From Methanofollis tationis (lineage in GTDB: Archaea > Halobacteriota > Methanomicrobia > Methanomicrobiales > Methanofollaceae): a stretch of DNA of 64,000 nt. Every line of letters starts with the position of its first letter. Within the stretch, counting starts at the first letter, position 1. Position numbers and translations under genes: made by a program. The notes below the pieces were generated by a model. It did not search any database and was not told the DNA's origin. It worked only from the letters and a program-made list of their open reading frames with translations. Below are positions 11,360-63,822 of the stretch, in pieces. The stretch is taken from assembly GCF_013377755.1 (NCBI RefSeq), contig NZ_JABXWR010000001.1, positions 1,809,104 through 1,873,103 on the forward strand. Reading direction: 5' to 3'.

Positions 11360-11415
11360 TGCTCTCCCTGCGGTATCCGGGAAGATATATCTCTCCGGCG
11401 GCAAGAGGGGGGTGC

Positions 11416-11901: not shown

Positions 11902-12451
11902 AGAGGTGTTCGACGAGGATCCTGATGCCGATCAGGATCAGGATGAGCCCGCCGAGGATCGCGGCCCGGTCGCGGTTCCTGTCGCCGAAGGCGGTGCCGA
12001 TCCAGAACCCAAGGAGTGAGAGGACGGCGGTGACGATGCCGATGGCGATCGCCGGCTCCAGGATCTCCACACCCAGGAGTGCAAAGGAGAGGCCGACGGC
12101 GAGGGCGTCGATGGAGGTGGCGATGCCGAGCATGAGCAGCACCGGCACCCGGTCGAAGGGGATCGGTCTGCCGTCCTCGCCTTTCAACCCTTCGTGGAGC
12201 ATTTTTCCACCGATGACGGCGAGCAGGAAAAAGGCGATCCAGTGGTCGAACCCCTCGATATAACCGCTGAAAAGGGAGCCGCCATACCAGCCGGCGAGCG
12301 TCATACCGGTCTGGAACACTCCGAAGAGTATGGCGAGCATGGCGGCAGTCCGGGCCCGCCCCTTCCTGACGGTGACCCCGCCGGCGATGGAGACGGCGGC
12401 GGCGTCCATGGCGAGGCCGACGGAAAGGAGGATTACGGTGAGGGCGTCCAT
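11894..12451 (-). CDS. mntP: Manganese efflux pump MntP
   Basis: Six-helix membrane protein of 185 aa that exports Mn(II). The two half-repeats carry the acidic motifs [14 protein letters not shown] and [13 protein letters not shown], as expected for MntP (DUF204). The upstream leader of about 200 nt contains strong inverted repeats (see separate entry), which could reflect metal control. The gene converges on msrA with an 8-bp overlap. Confidence 0.94.
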
Positions 12452-12497
12452 AGATCCCTTTCGCGTTGGCCGGGAGTGCTGATGAAACGCTCGGATC

Positions 12498-12526
12498 GGT
12501 CACCCGCGCTGCCTGTGGCAGTGACC
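12498..12526 (-). promoter_or_regulatory. Stem-loop in the mntP leader
   Basis: Nested inverted repeat about 47 nt before the mntP start: an outer GGTCAC/GTGACC stem encloses an inner CTGCC/GGCAG stem with a 3-nt loop. It sits where a cis-acting RNA switch or operator would lie. It does not show the bases I know for the yybP-ykoY manganese riboswitch, so its identity is open. Confidence 0.4.
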
Positions 12527-12577
12527 CCTCCGCATCCTATGCGCACCCGGCGCCTCTGATCGAATCGAGCCTGCGAA

Positions 12578-12593
12578 AGTCAGGTGTCTGACT
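12578..12593 (-). terminator. Perfect 6-bp hairpin between the DUF362 gene and mntP
   Basis: AGTCAG and CTGACT face each other across a 4-nt loop, followed on the minus strand by TTT. It lies 82 nt after the stop of the upstream gene. It could be a terminator of that gene or part of the mntP leader; the T-run is short. Confidence 0.3.
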
Positions 12594-12674
12594 CCCGGCC
12601 GATGTGGAGATGGCTCTGTTTGCCCATGCCTCTGCGAGGGTCAGGGGGAGGGAGCAGGAGGATAAAGAACCCTC

Positions 12675-13784: not shown

Positions 13785-13828
13785 GCTCCTCCACTCTTTC
13801 TCGGTGAAGGCAGAAAAAAAGGTGGCGG

Positions 13829-18272
<4,444 letters not shown>

Positions 18273-18356: not shown

Positions 18357-18725
18357 TCAGTCATAGGTCCCGATCTGAGGGTCCGCGATCCCGAAGGCCA
18401 GATCCACTTCCACGAGGAGTTTCTGGAGGATCGCCCTGACCTCGACTGCGGTCTCCCGGTCCATGCTGCCGGGCTGGTGCCAGATCACTTTTTTCCTGAG
18501 CTGCTCGACAAGGCTCTCGATCCGGGTGCCCGCGAACTGCGCCGGGAGGATCAGTTCGTCGAGATGATCGGCGGCGCCGTAAAACGCCTGCTCGGGCGGG
18601 AGGGCGAAATGTTTGCTGAGCGCCACCAGGGGGATCACAAAACCTCTCCCGAATTTGCTCTCCATGGATGGGAAGTTGTCCTCCCCGGTAAAAAAGGTAT
18701 CAGTGCCCGGTCTCACAGGAGCCAT
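18357..18725 (-). CDS. Hypothetical protein at the end of the Co/Ni transporter operon
   Basis: I do not recognise this 122-aa protein. It has no membrane segment or signal. Visible features are ESKFGRGFVIPLVALSKHF near residue 21 and a C-terminal half that looks helical (ETAVEVRAILQKLLVEVDLAFG). I prefer the ATG at 18725 because GGTGA is 4 nt upstream and the start overlaps the end of cbiQ by 13 bp, as in translational coupling; an ATG at 18665 is the alternative. Its place as the last gene of a metal ECF operon suggests an accessory role. Confidence 0.65.
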   Translation of the reverse strand: MAPVRPGTDTFFTGEDNFPSMESKFGRGFVIPLVALSKHFALPPEQAFYGAADHLDELILPAQFAGTRIESLVEQLRKKVIWHQPGSMDRETAVEVRAILQKLLVEVDLAFGIADPQIGTYD

Positions 18726-19525
18726 GCCGTCACCGCCGCCGCCGGGACGAGTGTGAGGCTTGTGGCAAGAAACACCCATTCCGACATGAGCAGCGGCTTT
18801 TTCCTGATGAAGAGGTGCGAGTCCTTCCCGTATCCGCGGCAGCGCATACTCGTATAGGTCCGCTCCCCCTGCTCGAAGGAGCGGAGGAAGATTGTTCCGA
18901 TGGTGTAGGCGAGCGTCTGCAGCCGGTAGCGGTACGGCAGGGAACGGTCGAAGGCGTCGAAGCATCTCGTCTCGAGAGACGCCTTCACCCGCAGGTAGAT
19001 CCGTGCAAAGAGGAAGAGATAGCGGACCATCATCCCGAGGACGAGGGTAAACTCCGGTGGCATGCCCAGGCGCCCGGCGCCCTCGAGCATCCCCTGCATT
19101 GTTGTCGTCGAGGAGAGGAGGATGATGAAGGAGATGCAGGCAAGAAATTTCACCGCCAGGATGGAGGCGAACTCCACCGACTCGGCATAGACGGCGATGC
19201 CTAAGGGGAGGGCGAACAGCGGATGGAACGCCGTGTAATGCGGGTTTTCGAAGAATATCTGGAAGAAGATCAGGAAGAAGCCGAACGGCAGGATCAGGAG
19301 GAAGCGCTTGAGGTAGATGGTCGGAGAGAGGCCGGATGCCGTCCAGAGGGCGGCAAAAAAGAGCAGAATTGCGGCGCCGAGGCGATAGACCGCGGTCGTG
19401 TACGGGAAGGCGACAACCGTTATAATCACGGCGAGGGTGATCAGGAGCTTCACCCGTGCATCGCAGCGATGGACCGGGCTCGTGCCCTGTGCCGACTGCT
19501 CGATGGCGAAGAGATCTTCGATCAT
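18713..19525 (-). CDS. cbiQ: ECF cobalt/nickel transporter, T component
   Basis: Transmembrane coupling subunit of 270 aa that links the substrate-binding CbiM to the ATPase. Hydrophobic helices span roughly residues 28-190, and the ATPase-coupling motifs of the family are present (RVKASLETRCFDAF and MRCRGYG). It overlaps the ATPase gene by 4 bp upstream and an unknown gene downstream. Whether the metal is cobalt or nickel is not clear from the sequence. Confidence 0.93.
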   Translation of the reverse strand: MIEDLFAIEQSAQGTSPVHRCDARVKLLITLAVIITVVAFPYTTAVYRLGAAILLFFAALWTASGLSPTIYLKRFLLILPFGFFLIFFQIFFENPHYTAFHPLFALPLGIAVYAESVEFASILAVKFLACISFIILLSSTTTMQGMLEGAGRLGMPPEFTLVLGMMVRYLFLFARIYLRVKASLETRCFDAFDRSLPYRYRLQTLAYTIGTIFLRSFEQGERTYTSMRCRGYGKDSHLFIRKKPLLMSEWVFLATSLTLVPAAAVTAWLL

Positions 19526-20355
19526 GGCCGGCCCCGGTACGCCTCCCTGAAAGCCGCCTCGACCTCTTCGTAGGTGTAGCCCTCACCGAGCGGGACGCCG
19601 GCCTCGCGCAGCGAACGCATCAGCCGCTGGAGCACCGGGATGTCGAGGCGGGTGCGCGCCAGCAGGTCGGGTTGCGAGAAGATCGCCGGCACCGGCCCCT
19701 GTGCGGCGACCGCGCCGCGGTCCATCACATAGACATAGTCGGCCAGTTCGGGAACGAGATCGAGGTGGTGGGTGGAGAAGACCACCGTCATGCCGAACCG
19801 TTCGGGCAGGGTGTTGACAAACCTGATGAGGTCTGCCACGCCCTGCGGGTCGAGCCCCGCGGTCGGTTCATCCAGGACGAGCACCTGCGGCTCCATCGCA
19901 AGGATGCCGGCGATGGTCACCCGTTTCTTCTCCCCGCCCGAGAGGTGGTGGGGCGGGCGCGTGCGCAGGTCGTCAAGGGCGAGGAGGCGCATGGCGCTCT
20001 CGACCCGGTGGTGCACCGTCTCTTCGTCGAGCCCGAGGTTTGCCGGCCCGAAGGCGATGTCCTGCTCCACCGTCGGGGAAAAGACCTGGTCGTCCGGGTT
20101 CTGGAAGACGATGCCGATCATCTTGCGCACCTCCCTGAGGTTTGCCTTTGTGATCGGTTCGCCGTGGACGAGCACCTCGCCTGACGTCGGCTTCAAAATC
20201 CCGTTCAAGTGTTTGAAAAGGGTGCTCTTGCCCGCACCGTTCGCCCCGATGACGGCGATCCGCGCCTTCCTGCCGGCGATGAAGTTCACGCCGTTGAGGG
20301 CCGGGGGCCGGTTGGGATAGGCGTAGGTGAGGTTGCGGGTCTCGAGGATGTGCAT
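19522..20355 (-). CDS. cbiO: ECF cobalt/nickel transporter, ATPase
   Basis: ABC ATPase of 277 aa. Walker A is GANGAGKSTLFKHLNG, the Q-loop follows in FQNPDDQVFSPTV, the signature is LSGGEKKRVTIAG, and Walker B is VLVLDEPTAGLDP. The SPTVEQDIAFGPAN segment is typical of cobalt/nickel ECF ATPases. No strong ribosome-binding site is seen before the ATG at 20355; the gap to the previous gene is 32 nt. Confidence 0.94.
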   Translation of the reverse strand: MHILETRNLTYAYPNRPPALNGVNFIAGRKARIAVIGANGAGKSTLFKHLNGILKPTSGEVLVHGEPITKANLREVRKMIGIVFQNPDDQVFSPTVEQDIAFGPANLGLDEETVHHRVESAMRLLALDDLRTRPPHHLSGGEKKRVTIAGILAMEPQVLVLDEPTAGLDPQGVADLIRFVNTLPERFGMTVVFSTHHLDLVPELADYVYVMDRGAVAAQGPVPAIFSQPDLLARTRLDIPVLQRLMRSLREAGVPLGEGYTYEEVEAAFREAYRGRP

Positions 20356-20387
20356 TGTCGTGTAATATGCTAAAAAAGAATATAGAG

Positions 20388-20723
20388 TCAGTGTTTTGAA
20401 GCGGCAACCGCCCTGCCCACACCGAAGACGATAAGGAGCGCAAGGATCGTGCCCAGAACAATGGCAACGATTTCTCCGACCTTGCCGCCGCCCTCGCCTA
20501 TCGAGTAATCGGGCAGGGGCGCCGCGTACTCGAAGGTGCCTGCACCGATCGCCTCGACGTCGGCGTCCTCGGGGGAAGGACCGGTGAGGCTCTTTGCGTC
20601 CTGCACCACGAGAGCGGTGGACTCCAGGCCGTCAGGGTCGCCCGAGGCGAGGAATACGGCGGTAACGCCTATGATCAGGGCGATAACCAGGCCGATGGCG
20701 ACGAACTGCTTTGTCTCGATCAT
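20388..20723 (-). CDS. cbiN: CbiN-like PDGLE-domain subunit
   Basis: 111-aa protein with a transmembrane helix at each end (about 8-26 and 82-104) and an extracytoplasmic middle with the namesake DPDGLE motif (residues 29-34). This small subunit assists CbiM in metal uptake. It overlaps the end of cbiM by 4 bp. In nickel systems a similar protein is called NikN, so the symbol is provisional. Confidence 0.85.
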   Translation of the reverse strand: MIETKQFVAIGLVIALIIGVTAVFLASGDPDGLESTALVVQDAKSLTGPSPEDADVEAIGAGTFEYAAPLPDYSIGEGGGKVGEIVAIVLGTILALLIVFGVGRAVAASKH

Positions 20724-21358
20724 GCTGCCGCCCCCGTAGAGGTTTTCATCAGGTCAGGACGTGCCGAGGCGATCAGGTAGATCGCGCCGGCCGTGAGCAC
20801 CGCTTCGATGATCCCGATCGCCGCATGGTAGGTGCCCATGGCGATGAGGCCGGGGACGAGGGGGAAGGTGCCAGCGAGCCACATCTCCACCGAGGCGGCG
20901 AGGGCCGAGACGAAGCAGGCAAACCAGGCGGCGACGGCCGCTGAGAGGTAGGTGTTTTTGACGGCGTTCCGGAGCCCGGTGAAGGTGTAGTAGCCGACGA
21001 AGCCGCCGATGACACCCATGTTGATGATGTTCGCGCCCATCGTCGTGATCCCGCCGTCACCGAAGACGACCCCCTGGACGAGGAGGACGAGGGTGAGGAT
21101 GAATACGGCGGCATAGGGGGATCCCAGCAGGATGGCGACGAGCGCACCCCCGACGAGGTGCCCGCTCGTGCCCATGCCGACCGGGAGGTTGAATGCCTGG
21201 ATGGCAAAGATGCCGGCCGCAAGGACGGCGACAAGTGGGATCTTCTCTTCGTCGAGCTCGTTTCTGGCCCACTTCAGTGCCAGGACGATGAAGACAAGGG
21301 CGATGAGCCAGTAGATCGCGCTCTGCCCGATTGGAATGAACGCATCAGGTATGTGCAT
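20720..21358 (-). CDS. cbiM: ECF cobalt/nickel transporter, substrate-binding CbiM
   Basis: Metal-binding membrane subunit of 212 aa. The N-terminal MHIPDAF supplies the conserved metal ligand His2; GMGTSGHLVGGALVAILLGSP, FGDGGITTMGANIINMG and GTYHAAIG are family marks. It is the first gene of a five-gene unit. A perfect palindrome lies directly before the ATG (see next entry). Nickel is the metal methanogens need most, so this may be NikM; the sequence does not decide. Confidence 0.94.
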   Translation of the reverse strand: MHIPDAFIPIGQSAIYWLIALVFIVLALKWARNELDEEKIPLVAVLAAGIFAIQAFNLPVGMGTSGHLVGGALVAILLGSPYAAVFILTLVLLVQGVVFGDGGITTMGANIINMGVIGGFVGYYTFTGLRNAVKNTYLSAAVAAWFACFVSALAASVEMWLAGTFPLVPGLIAMGTYHAAIGIIEAVLTAGAIYLIASARPDLMKTSTGAAA

Positions 21359-21370
21359 GTATGATCATAC
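21359..21370. promoter_or_regulatory. Palindrome GTATGATCATAC at the cbiM start
   Basis: A perfect 12-bp palindrome abuts the cbiM ATG. Its halves, GTATGA and TCATAC, equal the half-sites of the E. coli nickel repressor NikR, but there is no 16-bp spacer between them here. A TATATA element lies about 20-25 nt further upstream (near 21389-21394). An operator is plausible; the regulator is not shown. Confidence 0.5.
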
Positions 21371-21410
21371 CTTAGTAATACTTTGAGGTATATAGATGTT
21401 ACTTGTTCGT

Positions 21411-22568
21411 TTACATTGTTAATTCTTTCAGAAATGTGCGCACTGCCGGGGCGGCCATGATGCCAAATGACATAAGGATCTTCTTTTTTGTAAGGAGGCG
21501 GCGGACCAGGGCGTCGGGCCGGTCCATGTCACCGTAGCGGACGATCAGGTCGGTGATCTCAGGATCGGCCATTACGGCGATGAGGCGATCGACCTGTGCG
21601 GGTGCGATCTCCTGTCTGAACCGGAAAAATCTCGTTCCCTGTGTGAGCTCCCGGCCGAAATCCCCCTTCCAGCGCCGCTCGTAGTCGGCGAGCGCATTGT
21701 CAGAGAAGTCGCCCGACTCGCAGCAGGAGACGGCTACCGCTGCCGCGTGGCGCGCCGCGCGCACCCCGGTATAGACGCCCCCGCCCGAGGTGGGCTTTGC
21801 CATCCCGGCAGCGTCCCCGACGAAGAGGGTGCGGCGCCCGTAGGTCCGCGGCATCGTCCCCAGGGGGATGGTGCCGGTGACCAGGTGGGTGACGCTCGAG
21901 AGATAGGGGCGGGCAAACCGGCAGAAGTCATCGCGCACGTTCGCCGTACCGCACATCCCGACCCGCGCCCGCCCCTCCCCCGCCGGGATCACCCAGGCGA
22001 AGAACTGCGGGGCGGCGTTCGGGTGGATCTCGACGAGGTGGCTCTCCCGCTCCAGCGGCACCTCGGCCTGGATCCCTGAGAGATACACGGGCGCGCGGGC
22101 GATCCCGAGCATCCTGGCGACTCCGCTCCTCGGGCCGTCGGCGGCGATCACCAGCCGCGCCGCCACCTCCTGACGCCCGTTCACGCCCCTGGTGAGGAGT
22201 CGCCCCTCGCCTGCCCCGACCACGGCGGTCTTCATCCAGAACTCGGCCCCGGCCGCGGCCGCCGCCCTGACCATCTCTGCATCGAGGGCGGCGCGGTCGA
22301 CGACATACCCCTTTGTCACCCCGGCATCGAAGGAGAAGCCGGTCCCGGTGCTCGAGACGATGCGCGCACCCCGCACGCGGTTCAGGACCGAACGCTCCGA
22401 GACCCGGCACTCTGCAAAGGCATTCGCCGAGAGGAGACCGGCGCACTGGACCGGGAGACCGGGCGCCGCGTGCTCTTCAATGCAGAGGGTGGAGAGCCCT
22501 GCCCTGGCGCATGCTTCGGCCGCCGCGCTCCCTGCCGGTCCCGCCCCGACCACCGCAACGTCGTACAT
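21411..22568 (-). CDS. Geranylgeranyl reductase family FAD-dependent oxidoreductase
   Basis: 385-aa flavoprotein of the family that saturates the isoprenoid chains of archaeal lipids or reduces related prenyl groups. It begins with the FAD-binding VVGAGPAGSAAAEACARAG; QCAGLLS is the conserved motif after the first domain, and LFVGDAAGMAKPTSGGGVYTG is the second FAD motif. The exact substrate cannot be called, since methanogens carry several copies. The gene is monocistronic, divergent from pth2. Confidence 0.88.
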   Translation of the reverse strand: MYDVAVVGAGPAGSAAAEACARAGLSTLCIEEHAAPGLPVQCAGLLSANAFAECRVSERSVLNRVRGARIVSSTGTGFSFDAGVTKGYVVDRAALDAEMVRAAAAAGAEFWMKTAVVGAGEGRLLTRGVNGRQEVAARLVIAADGPRSGVARMLGIARAPVYLSGIQAEVPLERESHLVEIHPNAAPQFFAWVIPAGEGRARVGMCGTANVRDDFCRFARPYLSSVTHLVTGTIPLGTMPRTYGRRTLFVGDAAGMAKPTSGGGVYTGVRAARHAAAVAVSCCESGDFSDNALADYERRWKGDFGRELTQGTRFFRFRQEIAPAQVDRLIAVMADPEITDLIVRYGDMDRPDALVRRLLTKKKILMSFGIMAAPAVRTFLKELTM

Positions 22569-47974: not shown

Positions 47975-49231
47975 ATGTGGAAGGCGCTGGATATTGAGGA
48001 ATGGCAGGAGCGGCGGCGCTCAGACCTTGCAGGCGTGAGCGCGGCCGTCGCTGCGATCGTCGAGGGTGTGCGGAAAGACGGCGACGAAGCGCTCTACCGG
48101 TTCACGAAAGAGTTCGACCGGATCGATCTCGAAGACCTCGCCATCACCCCGGAAGAGTTCGAGGGGGCGTACGAGGAGGTGGAAGACTCCCTGATCGAGA
48201 GCCTCGCCGAAGCCGAGGCGCATATCAGGAGGTTCCACGAGCTCCAGCGCAACCGTTCGCTCTGGCTTGAGGAGGTGGAGCCCGGCGTCATCGTCGGCGT
48301 CAAGACCACCCCGCTCGACCGGATCGGCGCCTATGTCCCGGGCGGACGGGCGGCCTACCCCTCGACGGCCCTGATGACCACGGTTCCGGCACAGGTGGCC
48401 GGTGTCCCTGAGATCTGCGTCTGCACCCCGCCGCCGGTCCACCCCCTCACCCTTGTCGCCCTTGACATCGCCGGCGTGGACGAGTGCTACCGCGTCGGCG
48501 GCGCCCAGGCGATCGCTGCGATGGCCCTCGGGACCGAGAGTATCGATCAGGTCCAGAAGATCGTCGGACCCGGCAACGTCTATGTCACCGCCGCGAAGAT
48601 GATGCTGCGTGAGCATGCCGAGATCGACTTCCCGGCCGGCCCCTCGGAGATCGGCATCCTGGCCGACGGAACGGCTGACCCGGCCTTCGTCGCCGCGGAT
48701 ATCCTTGCCCAGGCCGAGCACGATCCCCATGCCGGATGCATTCTCATCACCACCGACCCGGCGCTGCCCGCAAAGGTCGGCACCGAGATCAAAGGCCAGA
48801 TGAAGAACGCCCCGCGCCGCTCGATCATTGAGGCGGCCCTCGGGAACTCGGGGTATGTCGTCACCGCCGATCTCGACGAGGCGATCACTGCCATGGACGA
48901 TGTCGCCCCGGAGCATCTCTCCATCCAGGTTGCCGACCCGCTCTCGGCCCTCAACGCCGTCCACAACGCCGGTTCGATCTTCGTCGGGCCGTATACCGCC
49001 GTCGCATTCGGCGACTATGCCTCGGGGACCAACCACGTCCTTCCCACGGCAGGCTTCGCCCGGGTCTTCTCAGGTCTTGACGTCCACCACTTCTGCAAGA
49101 CCTCCTCGGTCCAGATGATCGACAGGGAAGGCCTTGAATGGCTTGGCGGGGTCGTCGAGACGCTTGCCACCGCCGAGGGGCTCCATGCCCATGGGGAGTC
49201 GGTCAGGATCCGCAGGCGGAAAAAAGACTGA
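47975..49231 (+). CDS. hisD: Histidinol dehydrogenase
   Basis: Last step of histidine synthesis, oxidising histidinol to histidine with NAD and zinc. The 418-aa protein has GVKTTPLDRIGAYVPGGRA, VGGAQAIAAMALGT, FPAGPSEIGILAD, AQAEHDPHA and the zinc ligands in PEHLSI and GTNHVLPT. No Shine-Dalgarno site is evident; GTCTTAAT 35 nt upstream may be the TATA element of a leaderless transcript. It is a lone his gene here. Confidence 0.96.
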   Translation: MWKALDIEEWQERRRSDLAGVSAAVAAIVEGVRKDGDEALYRFTKEFDRIDLEDLAITPEEFEGAYEEVEDSLIESLAEAEAHIRRFHELQRNRSLWLEEVEPGVIVGVKTTPLDRIGAYVPGGRAAYPSTALMTTVPAQVAGVPEICVCTPPPVHPLTLVALDIAGVDECYRVGGAQAIAAMALGTESIDQVQKIVGPGNVYVTAAKMMLREHAEIDFPAGPSEIGILADGTADPAFVAADILAQAEHDPHAGCILITTDPALPAKVGTEIKGQMKNAPRRSIIEAALGNSGYVVTADLDEAITAMDDVAPEHLSIQVADPLSALNAVHNAGSIFVGPYTAVAFGDYASGTNHVLPTAGFARVFSGLDVHHFCKTSSVQMIDREGLEWLGGVVETLATAEGLHAHGESVRIRRRKKD

Positions 49232-49675: not shown

Positions 49676-50638
49676 TCAGAACCGCCACACCGGCCCGCCG
49701 GACTTTCTGCCGGTCCGCGTCCCTGACCCGGGCTCGAGCGCGGCCTGATCGTCCGCCACCTCGCGCAGCGTGGCGCTTGCATAGTCGGCGATGTGGACGG
49801 TCCATGCCTCTGGTGTCTGGCAGGCCACCTCGCCGTGGGGGCCGTGGTGCGACTGGACGATGTGCGTGAGGTGCGAGAAGAGGGCGGGTGGGAGGCGGGA
49901 TCTGAACCGCTCCAGGTAGGTGACGCCGAGGCTGATATGCCCGACCAGGTCGTACTCGGGCCGCGCAACAAAGCACAGGCCTGATCGTTCGAAGGAGAAC
50001 GCCTTGCCGATGTCGTGGAGGAGCGCGCCGGCGATGATCAGGTCCCGGTTGGATCCGAGATCGATGGCGTCGCACCCGGCCGCTGCAATCCTCGCCGTCT
50101 CAAGAGTGTGCTCGGCAAGCCCGCCCGGGTATTCATGATGCCGCCCTTTCGCTGCAGGTTTCTCGAAAAAACCGTCTGCACCCGAGATCGCTTCCAGCAC
50201 CACGTCTTTCAGGGCGGGATCGGCGATCGTTGCGATCAGGTCCAGGACCCCGCGTTTCAGGGCGTCAATGTCAGTATTCATCCTGACAAAATCTGCCGGT
50301 TCGATCGTTGATTCCGGGACCGGCTGCCCCAGGTACTCGACGCCCTCATTCACGCTGATCTGCAGGGAACTATTAAAGGCAGAGACCTTTCCTGATATGC
50401 GAAACACCCTGCCCACTTCGAGGGCTGCGCAGGCTTCAAGCAGCGTTTCGCCGCAGGTTGCCGTTCCCCAGATAGTGCAGGGCGCCGTCCCGGAGCGGTC
50501 GGCGAGGATGGCGAAAATATAGGGGTTTCCATCTTTCTTCCGCTTTACTTCTCGCCTCAGGACGAGGAAGAGATCGTCGACGCGGTCCCCGTCGGCGATC
50601 TCTGAAAGATAGACCTGTTTATTCCTGGCGTCGGTCAT
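49676..50638 (-). CDS. OB-fold/HD-domain phosphohydrolase (YhaM-type exoribonuclease-like)
   Basis: 320-aa protein with an N-terminal OB fold (about 12-110) and an HD domain (about 165-290; HHEYPGGLAEHTLETARIA, GALLHDIGKAFSF, HIVQSHHG). This order matches the YhaM/CBF1 3'-5' exoribonuclease family, which trims RNA or DNA. The C-terminus beyond about 300 is basic and not family-typical. It starts 39 bp after the upstream ATPase gene and is probably the third gene of that operon. Confidence 0.78.
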   Translation of the reverse strand: MTDARNKQVYLSEIADGDRVDDLFLVLRREVKRKKDGNPYIFAILADRSGTAPCTIWGTATCGETLLEACAALEVGRVFRISGKVSAFNSSLQISVNEGVEYLGQPVPESTIEPADFVRMNTDIDALKRGVLDLIATIADPALKDVVLEAISGADGFFEKPAAKGRHHEYPGGLAEHTLETARIAAAGCDAIDLGSNRDLIIAGALLHDIGKAFSFERSGLCFVARPEYDLVGHISLGVTYLERFRSRLPPALFSHLTHIVQSHHGPHGEVACQTPEAWTVHIADYASATLREVADDQAALEPGSGTRTGRKSGGPVWRF

Positions 50639-50677
50639 CAGAAGAGATGGGAGCCGCGGGCTATAAACGCCCTCCCT

Positions 50678-51955
50678 TTACAACTCGACCTCGAGGAATA
50701 CCTCTTCCTCTTCCCGCAGTTCTCCCTTCACCTTCCCGGCGTCGAAGGCATAGGCCGAAGACGGGTCATAGTCCGGGTAGAGTTCGCACTTGTCCAGGAT
50801 GTCCACGAACTCCCGGAGGAAGATCCTCGGGATCACATCGACGCGCCCGCCGAAGCGCGAGGTGATCCGGTCGATCATCGACCTGATAAACCGGTGGGAA
50901 ATCCGGCTCCGGTCCACCGGGGATGCGGCGTCGGCGTAGATGCCGGAGACGTTCAGGGCCGCTTCCTCCAGTTTGTCCATGTCGAATGGCCGCAGAACGA
51001 TCTGCGCCTGCAGTGGGTTTGCGACGCCGTCGGTGCCGACCACCCGCAGGCGGTCGTACAGCGGCGGGAGCGACCTGATCCCCTTCGAGCCCTCGAAGAA
51101 GGCCGGCGTGCCGGTGAAGAGGAAGTAACAGTGGGGCATCTCCCCGCGGTCGACGGCGTCGACGATCTGGCGGAGGTTGTTATACCCCTTCTCGCGGAGG
51201 TTCGAAGGCAGGGCCTGCACGGTCTCGACCTCGTCGACGGCGACGGCAATCCCGGCGTATCCGGCCGCCCTGACGATCCGCACGATCCCCTGCAGGAAGA
51301 CAAAAGCCGATATGTCGTCCACCTCCCCCTTCACACCGGCCGCCCGCCTGAAGTCCCGGCCGATATGGGGTTCGCCCGAAAGCCAGCCGAGCGCCGCCTG
51401 GGCGAGGGGAAAGTCCCCGGCGTTGTTCGCCGTATAATAGACGCGCAATGCGGCAGCAAGGGCCGGGTTCACCGTCGATATGTCGGCGAGCGCTGCCTCG
51501 ATCCGCGCCACCGTTCCTGCTTCGAGGGCCTCGTCCTCCTCGGCAGCGCCCTCTACCTCGATGATCCGCTCCTCGATGGAGAAGATCCAGTTGTCCACGA
51601 TCTCCTTGAGGGCGTGTTCGTGCTCGGCCGTCCGCAGGGAGGAGAGGATGCGGAAGTACAGGGCGCTGAGTTTGTGGAGCGGCGTGTCCCCGGAGATCAT
51701 CACATGGGCTGTCGCAAACCCCTTACTCCGGGCGATTTCGAGGGCGCGCGCCACCAGAAATGTCTTTCCGCTCCCGTATTCCCCGCGGACGAACTTTACG
51801 TCGGCCCCGCCGGAGGCTGTATAGTCGAGCTGCCCACCGATCACCCGCTCTTCCACCGCAAGACCGACAGCAAGCCGTTCAAGCCCGGACGCCGGAACGG
51901 TTCCCCTTCTGAGGGCGTTGATGATCCCGATGCTTTCTGCTTTGTTTCCGTCCAT
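50678..51955 (-). CDS. BREX-type (DUF2791-like) P-loop ATPase
   Basis: 425-aa AAA-like ATPase resembling the ATP-binding proteins of the BrxC/BrxD type, known from anti-phage BREX and related loci. Walker A is VRGEYGSGKTFLVARALEIA (about residue 56), and Walker B is GIAVAVDEVETVQ. The C-terminal segment RVDVIPRIFLREFVDILDKCE is the family's sensor-like signature. It has no membrane part. ATG 51955 follows the TPR-wHTH gene by 4 nt, a tight pair. No BREX methylase, PglZ phosphatase or BrxL is in this window, so it is not a standard BREX system. Confidence 0.78.
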   Translation of the reverse strand: MDGNKAESIGIINALRRGTVPASGLERLAVGLAVEERVIGGQLDYTASGGADVKFVRGEYGSGKTFLVARALEIARSKGFATAHVMISGDTPLHKLSALYFRILSSLRTAEHEHALKEIVDNWIFSIEERIIEVEGAAEEDEALEAGTVARIEAALADISTVNPALAAALRVYYTANNAGDFPLAQAALGWLSGEPHIGRDFRRAAGVKGEVDDISAFVFLQGIVRIVRAAGYAGIAVAVDEVETVQALPSNLREKGYNNLRQIVDAVDRGEMPHCYFLFTGTPAFFEGSKGIRSLPPLYDRLRVVGTDGVANPLQAQIVLRPFDMDKLEEAALNVSGIYADAASPVDRSRISHRFIRSMIDRITSRFGGRVDVIPRIFLREFVDILDKCELYPDYDPSSAYAFDAGKVKGELREEEEVFLEVEL

Positions 51956-51959
51956 CGCT

Positions 51960-53738
51960 TCACTTCCCGCAGTAGATATAGACCTCGCCGTGCTCTCCCA
52001 TCCCTCTCTTCTCGATGAGCGTGACACCGGCGTCGGAGGCTTTTCTGATCAGGCGGTTAATCGCTCCGCTCACCCGGCGCGTGCCGAGCACCTTGCGGAG
52101 TTCCTCCTCATTGCTCTCGCGGTGCTGCCGTAAAAAGGCGACGAGTGCCTCTTCCCGCTCGTCCAGTCCGAGATCGGGCGCTGTCTCCTCCAAAGGCCCG
52201 GAAGGTTTCGTGTTTCGGAGAGGGAGGGCCGGCCTCTCGGCGACGGTCGCCTCCTTGCAGCGCCTGATCAGGTCGAAGAATATTTCCGGGTTCTTCCGCG
52301 CCATATCAAGGCCGCGGAGTGAGCACTCCTTGCATCTGGCATACTCCCCGACTGAAAACGCCTCTTCTGCCGCGCGGAGATATATGCGTGCAAAGACCTC
52401 GATCCCGCCCGGTCCAAGCGACCTGACGGCGGCGGAGAAGCGGTCGATGAGGGCATCGATCAACCGGCGCATACCCTTCCAGTCGGTGCCGGCGTCGATG
52501 ACCGCTTCGGCCACCCTCACCAGGTCTGCGTCCCGTTTAATATTGGAGAGGATGTGCATGAGCACCTTCTCGTACTCACGCATCTCCCCCTGCCCGGCGA
52601 GGAACCGGGCGTATTCGATGCCGCCGTTGAGGAAGTCAAGCCGGTATGCGCGGTACAGCCACTCCGCAGCCTCGGTCGTCTGCCCGAAAGAGGCATAGAA
52701 CAGTCCTGTCCTGATGAGGCTGACCACGTTTGCGTCAGACGAGACCGTGGCCAGGTAACACGGGGGGACGGTCGTAGGGTTTAATGTCTTTCTTAAAAAT
52801 CCCTCATATGCTTCGATCACCATGCCCAGGCTTTCCGGATCGTCCATACGGTGCATCTCCTCTCCGATCAGCCCTTCGTAGCCCTGCCGGGCGAGGTCGG
52901 TGCTTCCGGTGGCGGCGATGAGTTCGCAGGCCACAAGCTGGTAGATCGGGTGGGGGTTCCGGGCGATGAGCGCCTCGCACCTTTCCAGCGCTTCCCTGCA
53001 GTGTCCCTCCGACTTTAAGAGGAGGACGTGGTCGAAGGCGAGGTCGTCGTCCGGGCAGTCTTTTAAGAAGTGGGGGAAGAGTTTCAATGCGCCCTTCCTG
53101 TCGAATGCCGCCACGGCGGCAAGGTACTGGCGCAGAAACGTCGGATCCCTTCTCTCCCTGAAGGCGTTGATCGACGCTGCCGCGGCTTCCCGGTGGCGGC
53201 CGGCCACCATCAGGGCGTCGATATAATCCACGTCGGCCCCTGTGCCCCCGAGAAGTTCCTCATATGCGAGAAGCGCCTCTTCTCCCTCTCCCGCCTCGAT
53301 CAGACTGCGCACCAGCGCTATGGCATCCTCGCGCTTTCCCGAGAGGCGGGCAAGCGCCGAGAGCAGGGGGATGGCCGAGCGGTGATCGCCGGAGCCGGTG
53401 AAATAGGCCGAGTAGGCGCGAAGCGCCTCTTCGTTTCCTGGATCGAGCTGGATTGCCTCTGCATACTCTGCAATTGCGCCGTCTGCACCCCTGGCGGCGA
53501 GCACCCCGCCGAGAAAGCTGTGAAGATAGGAAGACTCAGGCATTTTCACCAGGAGATCTCGCACCTGTGCCTCTGCTTCTTCGTATTCGCCGAGCGAGAC
53601 AAGGTTTTTGGCGACGAGGATGGCAAGAGAGGCGTCCCCTGGCGTCCTGGTGCACACCCTGATCGACTCCTGGTACCGCCCCTCTTCATAGAGGGCAAAC
53701 GCCTCCTTCCGGGGATCATCTGATGGTTCGTCTGTCAT
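51960..53738 (-). CDS. TPR-repeat protein with C-terminal winged helix
   Basis: 592-aa protein. Residues about 10-490 form many tetratricopeptide-like helical repeats (EAFALYEEGRYQESIRVC at the start, EYAEAIQLDPGNEEALRAYSAYF next), a scaffold for protein binding. Residues about 525-592 form a winged helix (REEALVAFLRQHRESNEEEL, RVSGAINRLIRKASDAGV) ending in a wing EKRGMGEHGEVYIYCGK. It is the first gene of the operon with the BREX-type ATPase. Together they look like a scaffold plus motor; the substrate is unknown. Confidence 0.75.
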   Translation of the reverse strand: MTDEPSDDPRKEAFALYEEGRYQESIRVCTRTPGDASLAILVAKNLVSLGEYEEAEAQVRDLLVKMPESSYLHSFLGGVLAARGADGAIAEYAEAIQLDPGNEEALRAYSAYFTGSGDHRSAIPLLSALARLSGKREDAIALVRSLIEAGEGEEALLAYEELLGGTGADVDYIDALMVAGRHREAAAASINAFRERRDPTFLRQYLAAVAAFDRKGALKLFPHFLKDCPDDDLAFDHVLLLKSEGHCREALERCEALIARNPHPIYQLVACELIAATGSTDLARQGYEGLIGEEMHRMDDPESLGMVIEAYEGFLRKTLNPTTVPPCYLATVSSDANVVSLIRTGLFYASFGQTTEAAEWLYRAYRLDFLNGGIEYARFLAGQGEMREYEKVLMHILSNIKRDADLVRVAEAVIDAGTDWKGMRRLIDALIDRFSAAVRSLGPGGIEVFARIYLRAAEEAFSVGEYARCKECSLRGLDMARKNPEIFFDLIRRCKEATVAERPALPLRNTKPSGPLEETAPDLGLDEREEALVAFLRQHRESNEEELRKVLGTRRVSGAINRLIRKASDAGVTLIEKRGMGEHGEVYIYCGK

Positions 53739-53789: not shown

Positions 53790-56700
53790 TCAGATGGAGA
53801 GTACTTCCTGGAGCACTCTGCCCAGTTCATGGACCATATAGGGCTTGCAGATGCTTGCGGCAAACCCATATTTCTCAGGTTTTCTGATGATCGGATCGTT
53901 CAGGTAACCGCTCGACACCACGACCTTTATCGCTGGATCCCGTTCTTTGAGGCGTTCCAGCGTCTCGAGACCACCCATTTTGCCTGGAACCGTGAGATCC
54001 AGGATCACGCCGTCAAAGTGCTTTCCTGCCTCCAGCGCCTCTTCAAAGCGCTTCACGGCCTCTTCGCCGTCCTTTGCTGTCGTGACGGTATAGCCGAGAT
54101 ATCTGAGGATGTCGCTCGTGGTGTCAAGGATTCCTGCCTCGTCATCCATCAGGAGAATCGATCCCATCCCGGTCGAAGGAACCGTTTCTGGCTTGGCCTT
54201 CACATCTATACCGTTTGCCGATGCTGGCAGATAAAGGAGGAAGTTCGTACCCTCCCCGGGTGTGGAGGCGACGTCAAGCCAGCCCCCATGGTTCTTGATA
54301 ATCGGCAGGGCCACGGCGAGACCGAGGCCGGTGCCGTGCTCCTTGGTGGTGAAGTAGGGATCGAAGATCCGCCCCAGGTACTCGGGCTGGATGCCGGTGC
54401 CATGGTCATGCACGGTGACCCTTACATAGGCGCCTGCTGGCAGGGGAATGGGGTCGTCCCCTGCTACCTCGAAAGGCGCGGCGGCGACCGTCACCAGCCC
54501 CCCTCCGGGCATCGCCTGTTCGGCGTTGACGATCAGGGCCTGGAGCACCTGGAGTATCTGGGCGGCGTCGACGTACACCGGCATCGCCGCGGCTTCGAGA
54601 TCGAGTCTGCACCTGCTCTTCGAGCCGCGCAGAGAGTAGGAGGCCGCTTCATGGATGAGGTCGGCCATGTCGATCGTCTCTTTTTCAGGCGTGGAGCGGT
54701 CTGAGAAACTGAAGAGCTGCTTTGTGATCTCCCCGGCGCGCGCCGTGGCAGTCTCGGCATCGCTCAGACGGTGGTATATGAAATCATCAGGCGCGACCTT
54801 CATCTTGGCCAGATTCAGGTTGCCCATGATCGAGGTTAAGGCGTTGTTGAAGTCGTGGGCGATCCCGCCGGCAAGATCTGAGAGAGAGAGAAGTTTTTCT
54901 GTTCTGACAAACTCTTCCTCAGCAATCTTCACCTCGGTTATGTCTCTCCCGATCGCCTGGTACTCGGCGATCGACCCGTCAGATGCGGGGATGGCGCGGA
55001 CACTCCACTGGTGCCAGCGCTCTTTCTGGCTGTCGCGTCTGACCTTCCCCTCAATCCTGACTATCTGCCCGCTTTGCAATGAACCACTCTCAAGAGAAGC
55101 GAGCAGGTCGTCAAAACCGGCAGGCAGAATATCTCTGAAGGATCCCGGGGATGTTTTGAGGCCGAACGAACGGGAGAACGCTGCGTTCCTGAAGGTCATC
55201 TGCAGGTCTGGCCCGAAGCGGCAGATCCATTCGGTCTGATCCTCGACGACGGCGCGGTAGCGTGCCTCGCTCTCTCTGATCGCCCTCTCCATCCGCCGCC
55301 GTATGGTGACGTCCTGTGCGATGTGAACCGCGCCGATGGGCTGGCCAGCGGCGTCCTCCAGGATCCGTGCCCCCCACTGGAGGATCTTCTCGTCGCCGTT
55401 TCTTGCGCGGATCCTCGCCTCGAAACTCTCAACCTGCCCCTCTTTTTTGAGTTCTGTCAGTATCGTCGAGATCATATGCTGGCCGTTCTCATCTTCGGGC
55501 ACAAGGAGACTCCAGACTCTGTCGCCGCCCACCACATCGTCCCTGACATAACCGCTGATCTCCTCGGCGGCACGGTTCCACACTGTCACGTTCCCGTCCA
55601 GATCGGTGACGGTGAGCAGCATGGTGGTGTTCTCGATGACACGCTCCCTGAAGGTGCTGAGCGCCCGGATTTCCTCTTCCGCACGTTTTCGTTCGGTCAC
55701 TTCGGCCCTGAGCCTTTCGTTTGACTCGGTCAGTTTCTCTGTGCGTTCAATCACAAGTTCTTCAAGATGACCGCGGTAGCGCGCCAGCTCCTCCTCGATC
55801 TCGACTTTCTCGGTGATGTCAACGAAGGAGAGCATGATACAGAGGGGATCGTTCTCTTCGTCGGAGACCATGCTCGCTGCAACGCTTGCATTGAATTTTT
55901 TTCCTCCTTTCTTTTTGCCGACGAGTTCTCCCATCCATCCGCCGTCCTGATCGATCTTCTCCAGGATCCTGGCGATCTTCTTCTTTGGCAGCCAGAAGCG
56001 ATCGAGCGGTTTTCCTATCACCCTTTTGATGTCGTCATATTCCCAGAGCCTCAGAGCCGAATTATTGGCAAAGACGAGGTCGCCTTCAAGATCGATGATG
56101 ATGATCGCATTGATGGACGAGGTGATCGCGCTGTCCATCACCCTGAGCGCCTCTTCGATCCGCTTCCTCTCAGAGATGTCGATCGCAGAGCCGATCACCT
56201 CAGAGGGGTTCCCGTCCTCGTCCCGGAGAAGTTTCACTTCTGAGTGGAGCCACCGATATTTCCCGTCTTTGTGTCTGATCCGGTATTCCAGCGTCAGGCG
56301 CCCCTCATCCGGGAGCGTTGAAACCTCCTCTTCCAGGATACGCTGCCGGTCTGAGGGGTGTATTCGGCCCGTCCAGAACGACGAATCATAGATCACCTCC
56401 TGCGGCTCGTAGCCGAGCAGCGCCGTGATGTTTTCGGTGACAAACGTGATCGGGCCCATGCCGCCCTCTCCGTTTGGTGGGACCTCAGAGGCGTAGATCA
56501 CGACCGGGCTTGAGGAGAGGATGTGCTTGAGATGGGAGCGCTCGGACTCTAATTCGGTTTCAAGCTGCCGCCGCTGGAGTACGACTGATGAGAGGTGGGC
56601 AAAGGTCTCGATCGTCGATATCTTCTCTATCTGGATCTCGTTTTTCTGGAAAAGGATCACACACCCGAAGAGCGTCTCACCCCGTGCAATTCCGATCGCT

Positions 56701-59351
56701 GCATAGTGACCCTGGCCCCCTCGGACAAACGTCCGGGCAAGCGACCATGCAGGGCTGCCGAGGGTGCTGGATACCGTTCCTTCACTCAACGGGATCAGCA
56801 TCCCTCCTTTTAACTCGACCTTTACCTCTTCAGGGAGAGCGAGTCTCATCCCTTTGATGCTCCGTGAAAGAGAGTACAGGCGCGGGTTTTCATCCTCATC
56901 GACACCTGAAATCGCCCTCAGATAGAGGGCGTCGTCCACCTCATCATAATCTGCCACAAATACGAGTGTCTCATCCAGGATCTCGCAGAGATGTTCGCTG
57001 ATAAACCGATAGATCTCCTCTTCGGGCGGGAGCTCGACAAAACTCATCGCCGCACTGGAGAGAAAAGAAAGTTCGCTGACGTACCTGATCTCCCGTTCTT
57101 CAGCGTTTTTTCTCTCGCTGATCTCGCGCATCACGCCCATCAGGCCGACCTCAGATCCGTTCTCCTCTTTGAGGGCGTTGATCTGTACTTCCATCCAGAT
57201 CCCCTCTCCGTCGGCCCGGATCGCCTCCACCTCCAGCACCTGTGATGCCGCCGACTCATCGGGGCTGATTGGTGCGAGGATCCCCTGTACGGCATCTGAG
57301 AAGACGGACGAAGATTGAGGGCTCAAAAATTCTGTGATCGGGTGATTGATCACTCCTGCGGCCGGTCTCCCGATAAGCCGCTCAAAGGAGGGACTGACGT
57401 AGGTGAAGGTGAGGTCAGGACCCAACGTGAATATGATGTCGGTTGCATTCTCCGCAATCAACCGGTAGCGCTGCTCGCTCTCCCGAAGTTCGAACTCGGT
57501 CTCTTTCTTCGCCGTTATGTCGAGCAGAGAGATCACCGACCGCTCGGTTCCCGGGATCAGGGAGACGTTGACCACCACGTCTCGTGACATGCCGTCCCCG
57601 GCGATCACCCTGCACTCGTAGGTCGAAGGGACACTGCCCGGATCGGCACGCCTGAGTTCGTGGTATTTTCTGATCCGTGAGCGTTCTTCTTCAGGGACAA
57701 GGGCCGTCCATTCGATCCCCTTCTGGATATCTTCGGGCTTCAGGTTGAAAAACCGATGAAACTCCTGGTTTGCCGTGACCACCCTGAGGGAGCGTTCAAG
57801 CATGAAGGAAGCCGTGCCAGTGGTCTCAAAAACGGTCAGATAGGATTGTTCCTGAGATTTTGCTGCTTTATTTGCAATATTTCTGCTGAGGTATCCTGAT
57901 ACCGCTTCAACGATCGCTTTAAGGACATCGGCCTGGGCTGCGGTTTCGCCCGCGTCTCTGGTGATGTGAAAGACCATTTCGCCTGCAGGCGCCCTGCGTC
58001 CGAGCAGGAAGACTGCCTTTTCCCCTTCTTCCGCCCCTGCAGAGACGGTAAAGCCCTCCTCTACCTGGATGCTGACTCCCTGGATCCACGGCACATCGCT
58101 GCAGATCGTCGCCGCCGCACCTGATAGGAGCACTTTTTCTGATGTTTCTTCGTCCTGCAAGAGTTGCAGCAGCGCTTTGAGGCACCGGATCTCGCCCCGG
58201 GCAGAACGTGCCCTCCCCACAGAGGGCGTGTTCCCGGAGCGCGTGCTGACCCTGTCGCCTGTAGGGCGGGCGATCCACAGAAATCCGTCAGGGCGTTCTT
58301 CTCTGTCTTTCACAGGGGAGATCTGCACGACAAATGGGAGCGTCTCTCCTCTGGATGCCGACAGCGAGAGGTGGCATGCGCACTCCACCGAAAGAAACTG
58401 GCCTGAGGTGATGGCCTGACGAGCCCGGGATACCGCCTCCCTCTCGGCGGGAGAGACGACGGAAAGGATCGCCGTACCCTGCAGTTCTTCGGGAACGATG
58501 CCGGTCATATGCTGGTATGTCCCGTCGAAAGACACGATCATGCCGTTTTTATCTTCTCTGAGTATCAACGACTCTTCGTTCTGTGTCGGGTTCTGAACGC
58601 CCGTTTCTATACTTCTGCCGCCCGGGGCATGCCAGGACCATTCAAGCTCGGAGAGGATACCCTCATCGTCAAAAAGACCGTATACTCTCCACTCTCCCCG
58701 CTCCTCCTGGATTCTGGTTTCCGGCATTGACGGTGTGAGGGTGGCCAGGCGCTGTCCGAGATCTCCGACGATGGATGGGGATATGAGGTCAGCAATGGTG
58801 CTTGATCCTGTTCTGACCCCGAACAATCGTTGAAACGGCTCGTCCGCTGAGACGATCGCCAGATTGGGAGTGGTCCTGCATCCGGGAAGGCCATGGGTGG
58901 CGGTGAGCGCTTCGTTGAGTTGTCTGGAGATATGGAGTGCAGCTTCAACTTCCTTTGTCCGGGAAAGGTTCCTGAAAAGGTCGATTCTGGAGCCCTTCAG
59001 GGGGCCGTGCCTGACGATCTCGCTGGAGTAGGCGATCCACCTGATCTTCTCTCCCCGCATCGCCCACTCCAGTCCTCCCGCGTCGCGCCCCTTTCGATAA
59101 ATGGCCTCAATTTTTGTTATGAAGCCTTCGGGGTTCTGGAAGAGTGGAGCTATTTCAGACTCGATCACTTCGATGGCATCTCTTCCGATGAACGCTTCGG
59201 GTGAAAGGCCGTAATCCTCCCTGAACACCTCGTTGACATAGATAACCACGCCCTCGTGATCGATCAGCAGCACACCGTCGCTGGCCGGGTCAATGGCCTG
59301 GTGCAGGTGTGCGATCTCCTGATTGCGAATGTTCAGTTTTGAACTCTCCAA
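53790..59351 (-). CDS. Very large hybrid histidine kinase with multiple PAS/GAF domains and receiver
   Basis: 1853-aa cytoplasmic sensor, no membrane helix seen. From N to C: PAS (about 14-130), a degenerate PAS (about 160-250), PAS (about 260-370), a GAF-like region (about 395-500), PAS (510-625), PAS (635-765), GAF (780-940), PAS (950-1080), PAS (1085-1205), a coiled coil, PAS (1255-1370), PAS (1380-1500), histidine kinase with LAGGIAHDFNNALTSIMGN as H-box and HGTGLGLAVALPIIKNHGG as ATP site, and a receiver with phospho-Asp in GVILDLTVPGK. The ligand and partner are unknown. It is a lone gene. Confidence 0.88.
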   Translation of the reverse strand: MESSKLNIRNQEIAHLHQAIDPASDGVLLIDHEGVVIYVNEVFREDYGLSPEAFIGRDAIEVIESEIAPLFQNPEGFITKIEAIYRKGRDAGGLEWAMRGEKIRWIAYSSEIVRHGPLKGSRIDLFRNLSRTKEVEAALHISRQLNEALTATHGLPGCRTTPNLAIVSADEPFQRLFGVRTGSSTIADLISPSIVGDLGQRLATLTPSMPETRIQEERGEWRVYGLFDDEGILSELEWSWHAPGGRSIETGVQNPTQNEESLILREDKNGMIVSFDGTYQHMTGIVPEELQGTAILSVVSPAEREAVSRARQAITSGQFLSVECACHLSLSASRGETLPFVVQISPVKDREERPDGFLWIARPTGDRVSTRSGNTPSVGRARSARGEIRCLKALLQLLQDEETSEKVLLSGAAATICSDVPWIQGVSIQVEEGFTVSAGAEEGEKAVFLLGRRAPAGEMVFHITRDAGETAAQADVLKAIVEAVSGYLSRNIANKAAKSQEQSYLTVFETTGTASFMLERSLRVVTANQEFHRFFNLKPEDIQKGIEWTALVPEEERSRIRKYHELRRADPGSVPSTYECRVIAGDGMSRDVVVNVSLIPGTERSVISLLDITAKKETEFELRESEQRYRLIAENATDIIFTLGPDLTFTYVSPSFERLIGRPAAGVINHPITEFLSPQSSSVFSDAVQGILAPISPDESAASQVLEVEAIRADGEGIWMEVQINALKEENGSEVGLMGVMREISERKNAEEREIRYVSELSFLSSAAMSFVELPPEEEIYRFISEHLCEILDETLVFVADYDEVDDALYLRAISGVDEDENPRLYSLSRSIKGMRLALPEEVKVELKGGMLIPLSEGTVSSTLGSPAWSLARTFVRGGQGHYAAIGIARGETLFGCVILFQKNEIQIEKISTIETFAHLSSVVLQRRQLETELESERSHLKHILSSSPVVIYASEVPPNGEGGMGPITFVTENITALLGYEPQEVIYDSSFWTGRIHPSDRQRILEEEVSTLPDEGRLTLEYRIRHKDGKYRWLHSEVKLLRDEDGNPSEVIGSAIDISERKRIEEALRVMDSAITSSINAIIIIDLEGDLVFANNSALRLWEYDDIKRVIGKPLDRFWLPKKKIARILEKIDQDGGWMGELVGKKKGGKKFNASVAASMVSDEENDPLCIMLSFVDITEKVEIEEELARYRGHLEELVIERTEKLTESNERLRAEVTERKRAEEEIRALSTFRERVIENTTMLLTVTDLDGNVTVWNRAAEEISGYVRDDVVGGDRVWSLLVPEDENGQHMISTILTELKKEGQVESFEARIRARNGDEKILQWGARILEDAAGQPIGAVHIAQDVTIRRRMERAIRESEARYRAVVEDQTEWICRFGPDLQMTFRNAAFSRSFGLKTSPGSFRDILPAGFDDLLASLESGSLQSGQIVRIEGKVRRDSQKERWHQWSVRAIPASDGSIAEYQAIGRDITEVKIAEEEFVRTEKLLSLSDLAGGIAHDFNNALTSIMGNLNLAKMKVAPDDFIYHRLSDAETATARAGEITKQLFSFSDRSTPEKETIDMADLIHEAASYSLRGSKSRCRLDLEAAAMPVYVDAAQILQVLQALIVNAEQAMPGGGLVTVAAAPFEVAGDDPIPLPAGAYVRVTVHDHGTGIQPEYLGRIFDPYFTTKEHGTGLGLAVALPIIKNHGGWLDVASTPGEGTNFLLYLPASANGIDVKAKPETVPSTGMGSILLMDDEAGILDTTSDILRYLGYTVTTAKDGEEAVKRFEEALEAGKHFDGVILDLTVPGKMGGLETLERLKERDPAIKVVVSSGYLNDPIIRKPEKYGFAASICKPYMVHELGRVLQEVLSI

Positions 59352-62088: not shown

Positions 62089-62232
62089 GAGAGGCCGGTC
62101 CCTGCTCAGGTAAATGCCCTGAAATGGCTGGTTCTGGACAGATGCCCTATCCAATCTGCCAACCCCCTCCCGAACAACTATAATCCACCGGTGAGATATA
62201 TTTCAGCAGACGATGATCCGCGGGGAATTGTT

Positions 62233-63822
62233 TTGAAGTATATATTTGTTACTGGCGGCGTAATGAGCGGCCTTGGCAAGGGGATTACGGCGGCTTCGAT
62301 GGGAAGGATCCTCAAAAACCGTGGTTATCAGGTCACGGCGATCAAGATCGATCCCTATCTCAACATTGATGCCGGCACGATGAATCCTGCACAGCACGGC
62401 GAGGTCTTCGTCCTCAACGACGGCGGCGAGGTCGACCTCGATCTTGGCAACTACGAGCGATTTCTCGATATCGAACTCACCCGGTCTCATAACATCACCA
62501 CAGGGAAGATCTATCGCAGCGTCATAGAAAAAGAGCGGCGGGGCGATTTCCTCGGGAGTACCGTCCAGATTATCCCGCATATCACCGACGAGATCAAGAG
62601 CTGCATCACGAGGACTGCGGAGGCGTTCGAGAACAACGGCCATAAGGCCGAGGTCTGCCTCGTGGAGGTCGGCGGGACGGTCGGCGACATCGAGAGCATG
62701 CCCTTCCTTGAGGCGGTGCGGCAGATGCGGGGTGAGTTCCCCCAGCACGACACCGCGCTTGTCCATGTGACCCTGGTGCCGGCCGATACGATGGGCGACC
62801 TCAAGACGAAGCCGACCCAGCACTCGGTGAAGGCCCTGCGCGAACTCGGTCTGCGGCCGGACATGATCGTCTGCAGGAGCGACCGCGTCCTGCCGGTGCA
62901 CTCGCGCAAGAAGATCTCCGAGTTCTGCGACGTGCCGCTCAATGCGGTGATCAGTGCTGCAGATGCCCCGGACATCTATCAGGTGCCGATGGAGCTTGAG
63001 AAGGAAGGGGCGGCAAACGTCATTCTCGATCTGCTCGGGCTTGAAAAGCGCGGTGTGGATACCGAGTGGTACCGGACAGTGACGGCGGAGTACACGAGCC
63101 GGGTGACGATCGGGCTGGTCACAAAGTACGGGGTCGAAGACGTCTATCTCTCCATCAAAGAGGCGCTGAAACACGCGGGCCGCGCCCTCTCCACCGAGGT
63201 GCAGATCAGGTGGCTGGACGCGGAGACCTATAACGCCGAAGATCTCAGCGAGGTCGACGGCGTCCTGATCCCGGGCGGCTTCGGGATAAGGGGCATTCCC
63301 GGCAAGATCCGGGCGATCCAGTACGCCCGGGAGCACCAGGTCCCCTTCCTCGGGATCTGCCTCGGGTTCCAGATGGCGGTGGTCGAGTACGCCCGTGACG
63401 TTCTTGGTTGCCTGGACGCAATATCTGAGGAATTCGGACCGGGAACGCATGTGATCGCCATCCTGCCCGAACAGGAGGAGGTGATCAACCTCGGCGGCAC
63501 GATGCGCCTTGGCGGCTATCCGATCGAGGTGGCCCCGGAGACGATGGCCATGAACCTGTACGGCAGCGGCGAGATTACAGAGCGGCACCGCCACCGGTAT
63601 GAGGTGAACCCGGATTATATCGGCAAGCTCGAAACTGCAGGTCTCGTATTCTCCGGGAAGAACGGTAACAGGATGGAGATTCTGGAAATATCCGGACATC
63701 CGTTCTTCTTTGCGACCCAGTTCCATCCCGAGTTCAGGTCGCGGCCGACGCGGCCGTCTCCGCCCTATCTCGGCTTTGTAAATGCATGCAGGGAGAACAA
63801 GAACCGGCGGAACCAGAGGTGA
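62233..63822 (+). CDS. pyrG: CTP synthase
   Basis: Makes CTP from UTP, ATP and glutamine. The 529-aa protein has the synthase domain ([54 protein letters not shown]) and a C-terminal glutamine amidotransferase domain with Cys in FLGICLGFQ and the His-Glu pair in FHPEF. TTG 62233 is preferred because the family begins at KYIFVTGG and GGGGA lies upstream; a longer ORF starts at GTG 62191. guaAB follows after 5 nt. Confidence 0.96.

Follow-up and report, generated by a model that had tools for sequence, protein, structure and literature searches.

Genes at the locus

The window, a 64,000-nt stretch of the Methanofollis tationis genome, holds three neighbouring open reading frames on the minus strand. 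A (51960–53738) encodes a 592 aa TPR-winged-helix protein, as judged from the open reading frame, domain matches, a predicted structure and the distribution of homologues. B (50678–51955) encodes a 425 aa ATPase of the BrxD family, for which profile matches and a structural model predict an Orc1/Cdc6-like AAA+ protein. C (49676–50638) encodes a 320 aa YhaM-like OB-HD protein. Each starts with ATG; for B, the mechanical open reading frame extends up to a GTG at 52027. All three genes lie where a sequence-only reading of this DNA had put them, and the spacings given there, 4 nt between A and B and 39 nt between B and C, agree with the open reading frame coordinates.

The locus is flanked downstream by hisD (47975–49231, plus strand), and its upstream landmark is pyrG, for CTP synthase (62191–63822, plus strand); neither belongs to the module proposed below. 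The conserved neighbourhood order is hisC–argD–guaA–pyrG, followed by a divergent gene for a family-2 glycosyltransferase (GT2), A, B and hisD. Directly upstream of A in the window is a gene for a 1853-aa sensor kinase (53790–59351, minus strand) with at least seven PAS matches plus histidine kinase and receiver domains; other families have the GT2 gene at that place. The sequence-only reading had also called for a check of whether the genes lie in defence islands. They do not: in the loci read, the neighbours of A-B are GT2 or a PAS kinase, pyrG, guaA, argD, hisC and hisD, and none of six window neighbours has a PADLOC match.

Proteins A and B

A had been described as a TPR scaffold that ends in a winged helix. 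A match to TPR_19 (4.7e-12) bears this out, and the AlphaFold2 model (mean pLDDT 88) agrees, with a helical TPR solenoid up to about residue 497 that a flexible linker joins to a winged helix at residues 527–592 (51963–52160, minus strand). The winged helix is the best conserved stretch of A (R548, R554, R555, G558 and N561). Foldseek with A returned many TPR proteins and was uninformative. Full-length homologues of A were found only in genomes with B, and searches of good-quality genomes that lack A-B gave generic TPR matches and no orphan A.

B is a BrxD-type ATPase, as had been suggested. It matches PF10923 (BrxC_BrxD) at 7.5e-129 and 430.7 bits (cut-off 22.2), the NCBIfam BREX_BrxD equivalog NF033438 at 422.7 bits (cut-off 350), and the PADLOC model of BrxD at 426.6 bits, as against only 153 bits as SngB. 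The curated cut-offs are thus exceeded, and both Walker motifs are intact: Walker A is GEYGSGKT (residues 58–65; 51761–51784, minus strand) and the Walker B acidic pair is D241 E242 (51230–51235, minus strand). K64, T65, D241 and E242 are each at least 98% conserved in an alignment of 47 rows. B is the only PF10923 protein in its genome; there is no second BrxD. In structural alignments made with VIA-align, the top rows for the B model (pLDDT 79) are archaeal ORC/Cdc6 proteins (Z 14–16, up to 16.4), followed by AAA+ ATPases of the TnsC/MuB type (Z 12–13). The model therefore predicts an ORC/Cdc6-type fold, an AAA+ module with a C-terminal helical bundle, and this agrees with the published classification of BrxD (PMC12839542). 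Foldseek with the model gave no PDB match below E 0.001, and a sequence search of the PDB found nothing.

C is a neighbour of the pair

What is the status of the third gene? We designate families f1, f2 and so on, f1 being that of the window. C had been called a YhaM-like exonuclease-type protein and the third member of an operon. The OB and HD domains are present, but C scores 75.5 bits against the YhaM exoribonuclease equivalog, with a cut-off of 460, and so is YhaM-like only. A three-gene sensor-motor-nuclease system of A, B and C is highly improbable: C lies just downstream of B in the window and adjoins B in six of six further f1 loci read, but it occurs in f4 and f5 without A-B, is missing from A-B-bearing genomes of f6, the family in which A-B is commonest, and is often separated from B by other genes in f3. 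In most f5 genomes read, C directly follows GT2 with no A-B in between. Because C occurs without A-B and A-B without C, C belongs to the neighbourhood and not to the module. It is a conserved passenger there.

A BrxHI-type helicase encoded elsewhere

BrxD pairs with the helicase BrxHI in type 2 BREX (PMC12839542), and we therefore searched for BrxHI in genomes with A-B. All 17 A-B genomes first tested encode a helicase of ~700–730 aa that is nearest to BrxHI, in addition to the usual Lhr of ~900 aa; in this search, genomes without A-B had the ~900 aa Lhr only. A 426-bit helicase match in G046 is SngC of the Shango locus of that genome. The protein of M. tationis, which we call H, is ~717 aa long and is encoded outside the window, ~373 kb from A-B (G000:C1:1484902–1487004, minus strand). 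Its best PADLOC helicase model is BrxHI (517.5 bits; SngC 357), and its SF2 helicase motifs are invariant in 15 rows, placing it in the BrxHI family. The catalytic motifs of B and of H are invariant in the alignments. The H locus is separate from A-B and lies near a thioredoxin-like gene; many genomes also have purF and genes for translation factors close to it. Both loci have housekeeping neighbours. By these comparisons, the true third member would be H rather than the neighbouring C. The likely functional partner is revealed here by shared presence and loss, hundreds of kilobases away, and is not the neighbour gene.

Mean p-distances are 0.61 for A, 0.54 for H and 0.39 for B, as compared with 0.26 for PyrG. 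dN/dS is low for all three (0.03–0.10 for B, 0.13–0.22 for A and 0.17–0.25 for H), and A, B and H are under strong purifying selection.

Distribution and joint loss

All 46 loci inspected, from three families, have A immediately upstream of B, and in most of them 34 nt separate the A stop codon from a fixed motif of B. This nearly constant spacing argues that the adjacency is not due to chance, and the pairing seen in the window is a real and conserved one. When the phylum was sampled evenly (393 genomes), the 55 genomes with full-length A were exactly those with core B, and all of them belong to Methanomicrobiales. Among 232 genomes of this order, PF10923 proteins scoring ~375–450 bits are present as a single copy in almost all members of f1, f3 and f6, and none of A, B and H was found in f2, f4 and f5. 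Among genome contigs, the named relatives are Methanofollis, Methanolinea, Methanoregulaceae and Methanospirillaceae. Extra PF10923 copies above ~450 bits in some relatives are part of Shango loci and lack A.

We compared by hand the profile results for H with those for PF10923 over the 232 genomes. B and H are both present in 131 and both absent from 89; seven have B only and five have H only. All seven genomes with B only are incomplete MAGs (66–87% complete). In the ~135 Methanomicrobiales genomes that are at least 90% complete, the corresponding figures are ~85 with both, 49 with neither, none with B only and one with H only. This sole good-quality mismatch, G160, is without the syntenic hisD as well, which makes an assembly gap the likely cause of the missing B.

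A tree of PyrG unites f1 with f2, f4 and f5 (80/87) and leaves f3 and f6 outside. The simplest history would be that the module is ancestral, with one joint loss before the split of f2, f4 and f5 and a second in genus g36. A-B and H, which lie at two loci, were lost jointly on at least two occasions, one of them a clean deletion. In G197 (a single main contig, 99% complete), A is absent and GT2 and hisD are 25 bp apart, in contrast to GT2–A–B–hisD in its close relative G201. Furthermore, G197 has no H at 1e-100 (~340 bits), where g36 relatives score at least 565 bits. The distance from pyrG to hisD in G199 is also too short for A-B.

Genus g36, which includes G207 (loci L080 and L117), has an unusually long H branch, and some members have lost the whole module; the genus is a natural experiment for module function. 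A strong PglZ match (211 bits) is found at G197:C1:2150738–2151259, and BREX or a relative may occur where the core module is gone. Since G197 has this match and no A-B-H, the core module does not follow BREX. Broken A and B frames in G020 were considered as a case of decay and dropped, the hisD match there being also partial with an internal stop, and assembly error as likely.

Because the genomes share ancestry, these patterns contain few independent co-occurrence events, with two clear joint losses. The correlation of B and H distances is 0.94, the highest of 39 gene pairs, but that of H and purF is 0.93. Hence, the distance correlation is weak and non-discriminating evidence of interaction.

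Mobile elements and related ATPase-helicase loci

No match was found in 50,697 phage records, and viral contigs gave six distant matches with 24–28% identity. Plasmids carry no core-type copy; the best match has 41.5% identity, and the annotated best matches are BREX.

Core B forms one clade and core H another (100/99). Both group with BREX BrxD and BrxHI, apart from Shango; their exact sister groups are uncertain, given long deep branches in both trees. For comparison, the trees include eight BREX or BREX-like plasmid loci, 12 Shango loci and three further loci, and in all of these the helicase gene directly follows the ATPase gene. The same order, with the BrxHI-like helicase after the BrxD-like ATPase, recurs with varied partners, such as TerB proteins in Shango, and PglZ and others in BREX.

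In the same phylum, three loci of genus g61 in family f12 (L150, L151 and L152) are compact trios, in which genes for a BrxD-like ATPase and a BrxHI-like helicase accompany that for a 258-aa protein without a Pfam match. A plasmid of Deinococcus psychrotolerans (L163, NZ_CP034187.1) encodes in a row, at 7987–15401, an LRV/HEAT-repeat protein, a 451-aa protein, a BrxD-like ATPase, a BrxHI-like helicase and an HNH protein, with a further ATPase-helicase copy at 18602–21789. PglX and PglZ are not annotated in the 25 kb shown, and this set is possibly a minimal relative that has not been catalogued. Several genomes of the phylum have loci of the Shango type (TerB protein, SngB and SngC; L090–L100 and L153), in some cases alongside the core A-B-H.

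Discussion

We propose that A, B and H probably constitute one free-standing, vertically inherited DNA-processing module of adaptor, helicase loader and helicase. The proposal builds on the family assignments, the adjacency of A and B, their co-occurrence and co-loss with H, the separate clades and the intact catalytic motifs. B, an Orc1/Cdc6-like ATPase of the BrxD family, would be the loader or switch, and the motor would be H, an SF2 helicase of the BrxHI type. A, with its TPR solenoid and conserved winged helix, would take the place of the partner proteins of BREX or Shango and bring the B-H pair to a DNA or protein target. Thus, an initiator-like ATPase would load a helicase under the guidance of an adaptor. 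The set is a core one, inherited vertically in three families of Methanomicrobiales. The physical complex, the loading mechanism and the target are what we infer from these comparisons.

What would such a module do? We lean towards genome maintenance (fork or damage processing), which we consider somewhat likelier than resident immunity against viruses. If the complex is real, maintenance has roughly an even chance of being its role, and immunity is a possible, less probable one. Vertical inheritance, housekeeping synteny, single copy and the lack of mobile copies favour maintenance; the clean losses indicate that the module is dispensable.

The alternative that survives best, though we find it rather unlikely, is that an A-B-H complex provides resident immunity against viruses and plasmids, with A sensing invader DNA or proteins and B loading H onto invader DNA so that invader replication is blocked. 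The named homologous dyads do belong to anti-phage systems, namely type 2 BREX, type 6 BREX and Shango; anti-phage activity has been reported for Shango (PMC10250203). The fast divergence of A relative to PyrG and the clean losses point the same way. However, the module lies in no defence island, is present in single copy, descends vertically and has H split from A-B. The phage, viral and plasmid searches described above also argue against immunity.

A less probable alternative is that A and B are a functional pair to which H is unrelated, the two distributions matching through vertical inheritance and chance losses in the same few branches. Indeed, the genomes are related, so the 131 joint presences represent far fewer independent events. 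The gene for H is not linked to A-B, and H distances show nearly as good a correlation with those of purF as with those of B. Nonetheless, H belongs to the family that accompanies BrxD directly downstream in BREX and Shango, there are two separate joint losses, one of them recent, and no good-quality genome with A-B lacks H.

It is possible, though we put it at less than an even chance, that the BREX ATPase-helicase engine persists in methanogens as a stable housekeeping machine for genome maintenance, equipped with a TPR-winged-helix adaptor of its own and with its helicase encoded in trans. It would either be made of defence parts turned core or represent an older core version, related to whatever gave rise to the defence dyads. 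If genome maintenance is the role, machinery of immunity would be tied to the core DNA metabolism of archaea. A minimal three-gene version without methylase or PglZ would also let BrxD–BrxHI activity be studied alone.

Comparison with known systems

The closest counterparts of B and H are BrxD and BrxHI of type 2 BREX (Pgl); a BrxD of plasmid BREX-2 is ~40% identical to B over 93% of its length. BrxD and BrxHI are described as a tightly linked dyad for which helicase loading has been suggested, their role in type 2 BREX being uncharacterized (PMC12839542). The sequence-only reading had noted that other BREX genes are missing, and this is correct. No PglZ (PF08665) was matched in the M. tationis genome, and the neighbours at the A-B locus include no PglX methylase, PglW or BrxC/PglY, all of which, with PglZ, are part of type 2 BREX. 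PglZ also has no match in 13 of 16 other A-B genomes tested, with weak or other PglZ in G088, G091 and G013. Furthermore, the ATPase and helicase genes are adjacent in type 2 BREX and unlinked here. We therefore reject BREX membership of A-B, PglZ being absent; the name "BREX BrxD" that the NCBI equivalog model gives to B in a genome without PglZ is an annotation trap. A published study found no type 2 BREX in archaea (PMC12839542), and a survey of archaeal immunity does not mention BREX (PMC12988326). That A-B-H is what is left of a type 2 BREX locus in decay would account for the nearest relatives of B and H, but it is very doubtful given this archaeal absence, the intact motifs, the strong purifying selection, the conservation across three families and a conserved A that is not found in the BREX loci read. 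Type 2 BREX is a mobile defence locus, whereas A-B-H is core to one archaeal order and has a TPR-winged-helix partner.

Shango (SngA-SngB-SngC) follows the same three-part logic of a partner, a PF10923 ATPase and a Ski2/Lhr-like helicase, likewise without methylase or PglZ. Membership in Shango was rejected: B scores far lower as SngB than as BrxD, no similarity between A and SngA could be detected, A is without TerB domains, and TerB_C is absent from the M. tationis genome. Shango ATPases and helicases form clades separate from core B and H, and the Shango helicase gene adjoins that of the ATPase, whereas H is encoded in trans.

Archaeal Orc1/Cdc6 and TnsC/MuB share the predicted fold of B, but they are only 10–16% identical to it in structural alignments, and B is not known to act at origins or in transposition. 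Archaeal Lhr is an SF2 helicase related to H and is present besides it. H differs in its smaller size, in its score against BrxHI (513–559 bits versus ~370 for Lhr) and in tracking A-B. The methanogen A-B-H set is another variant of the ATPase-helicase pattern, set apart by its core status, its vertical inheritance and its split between two loci.
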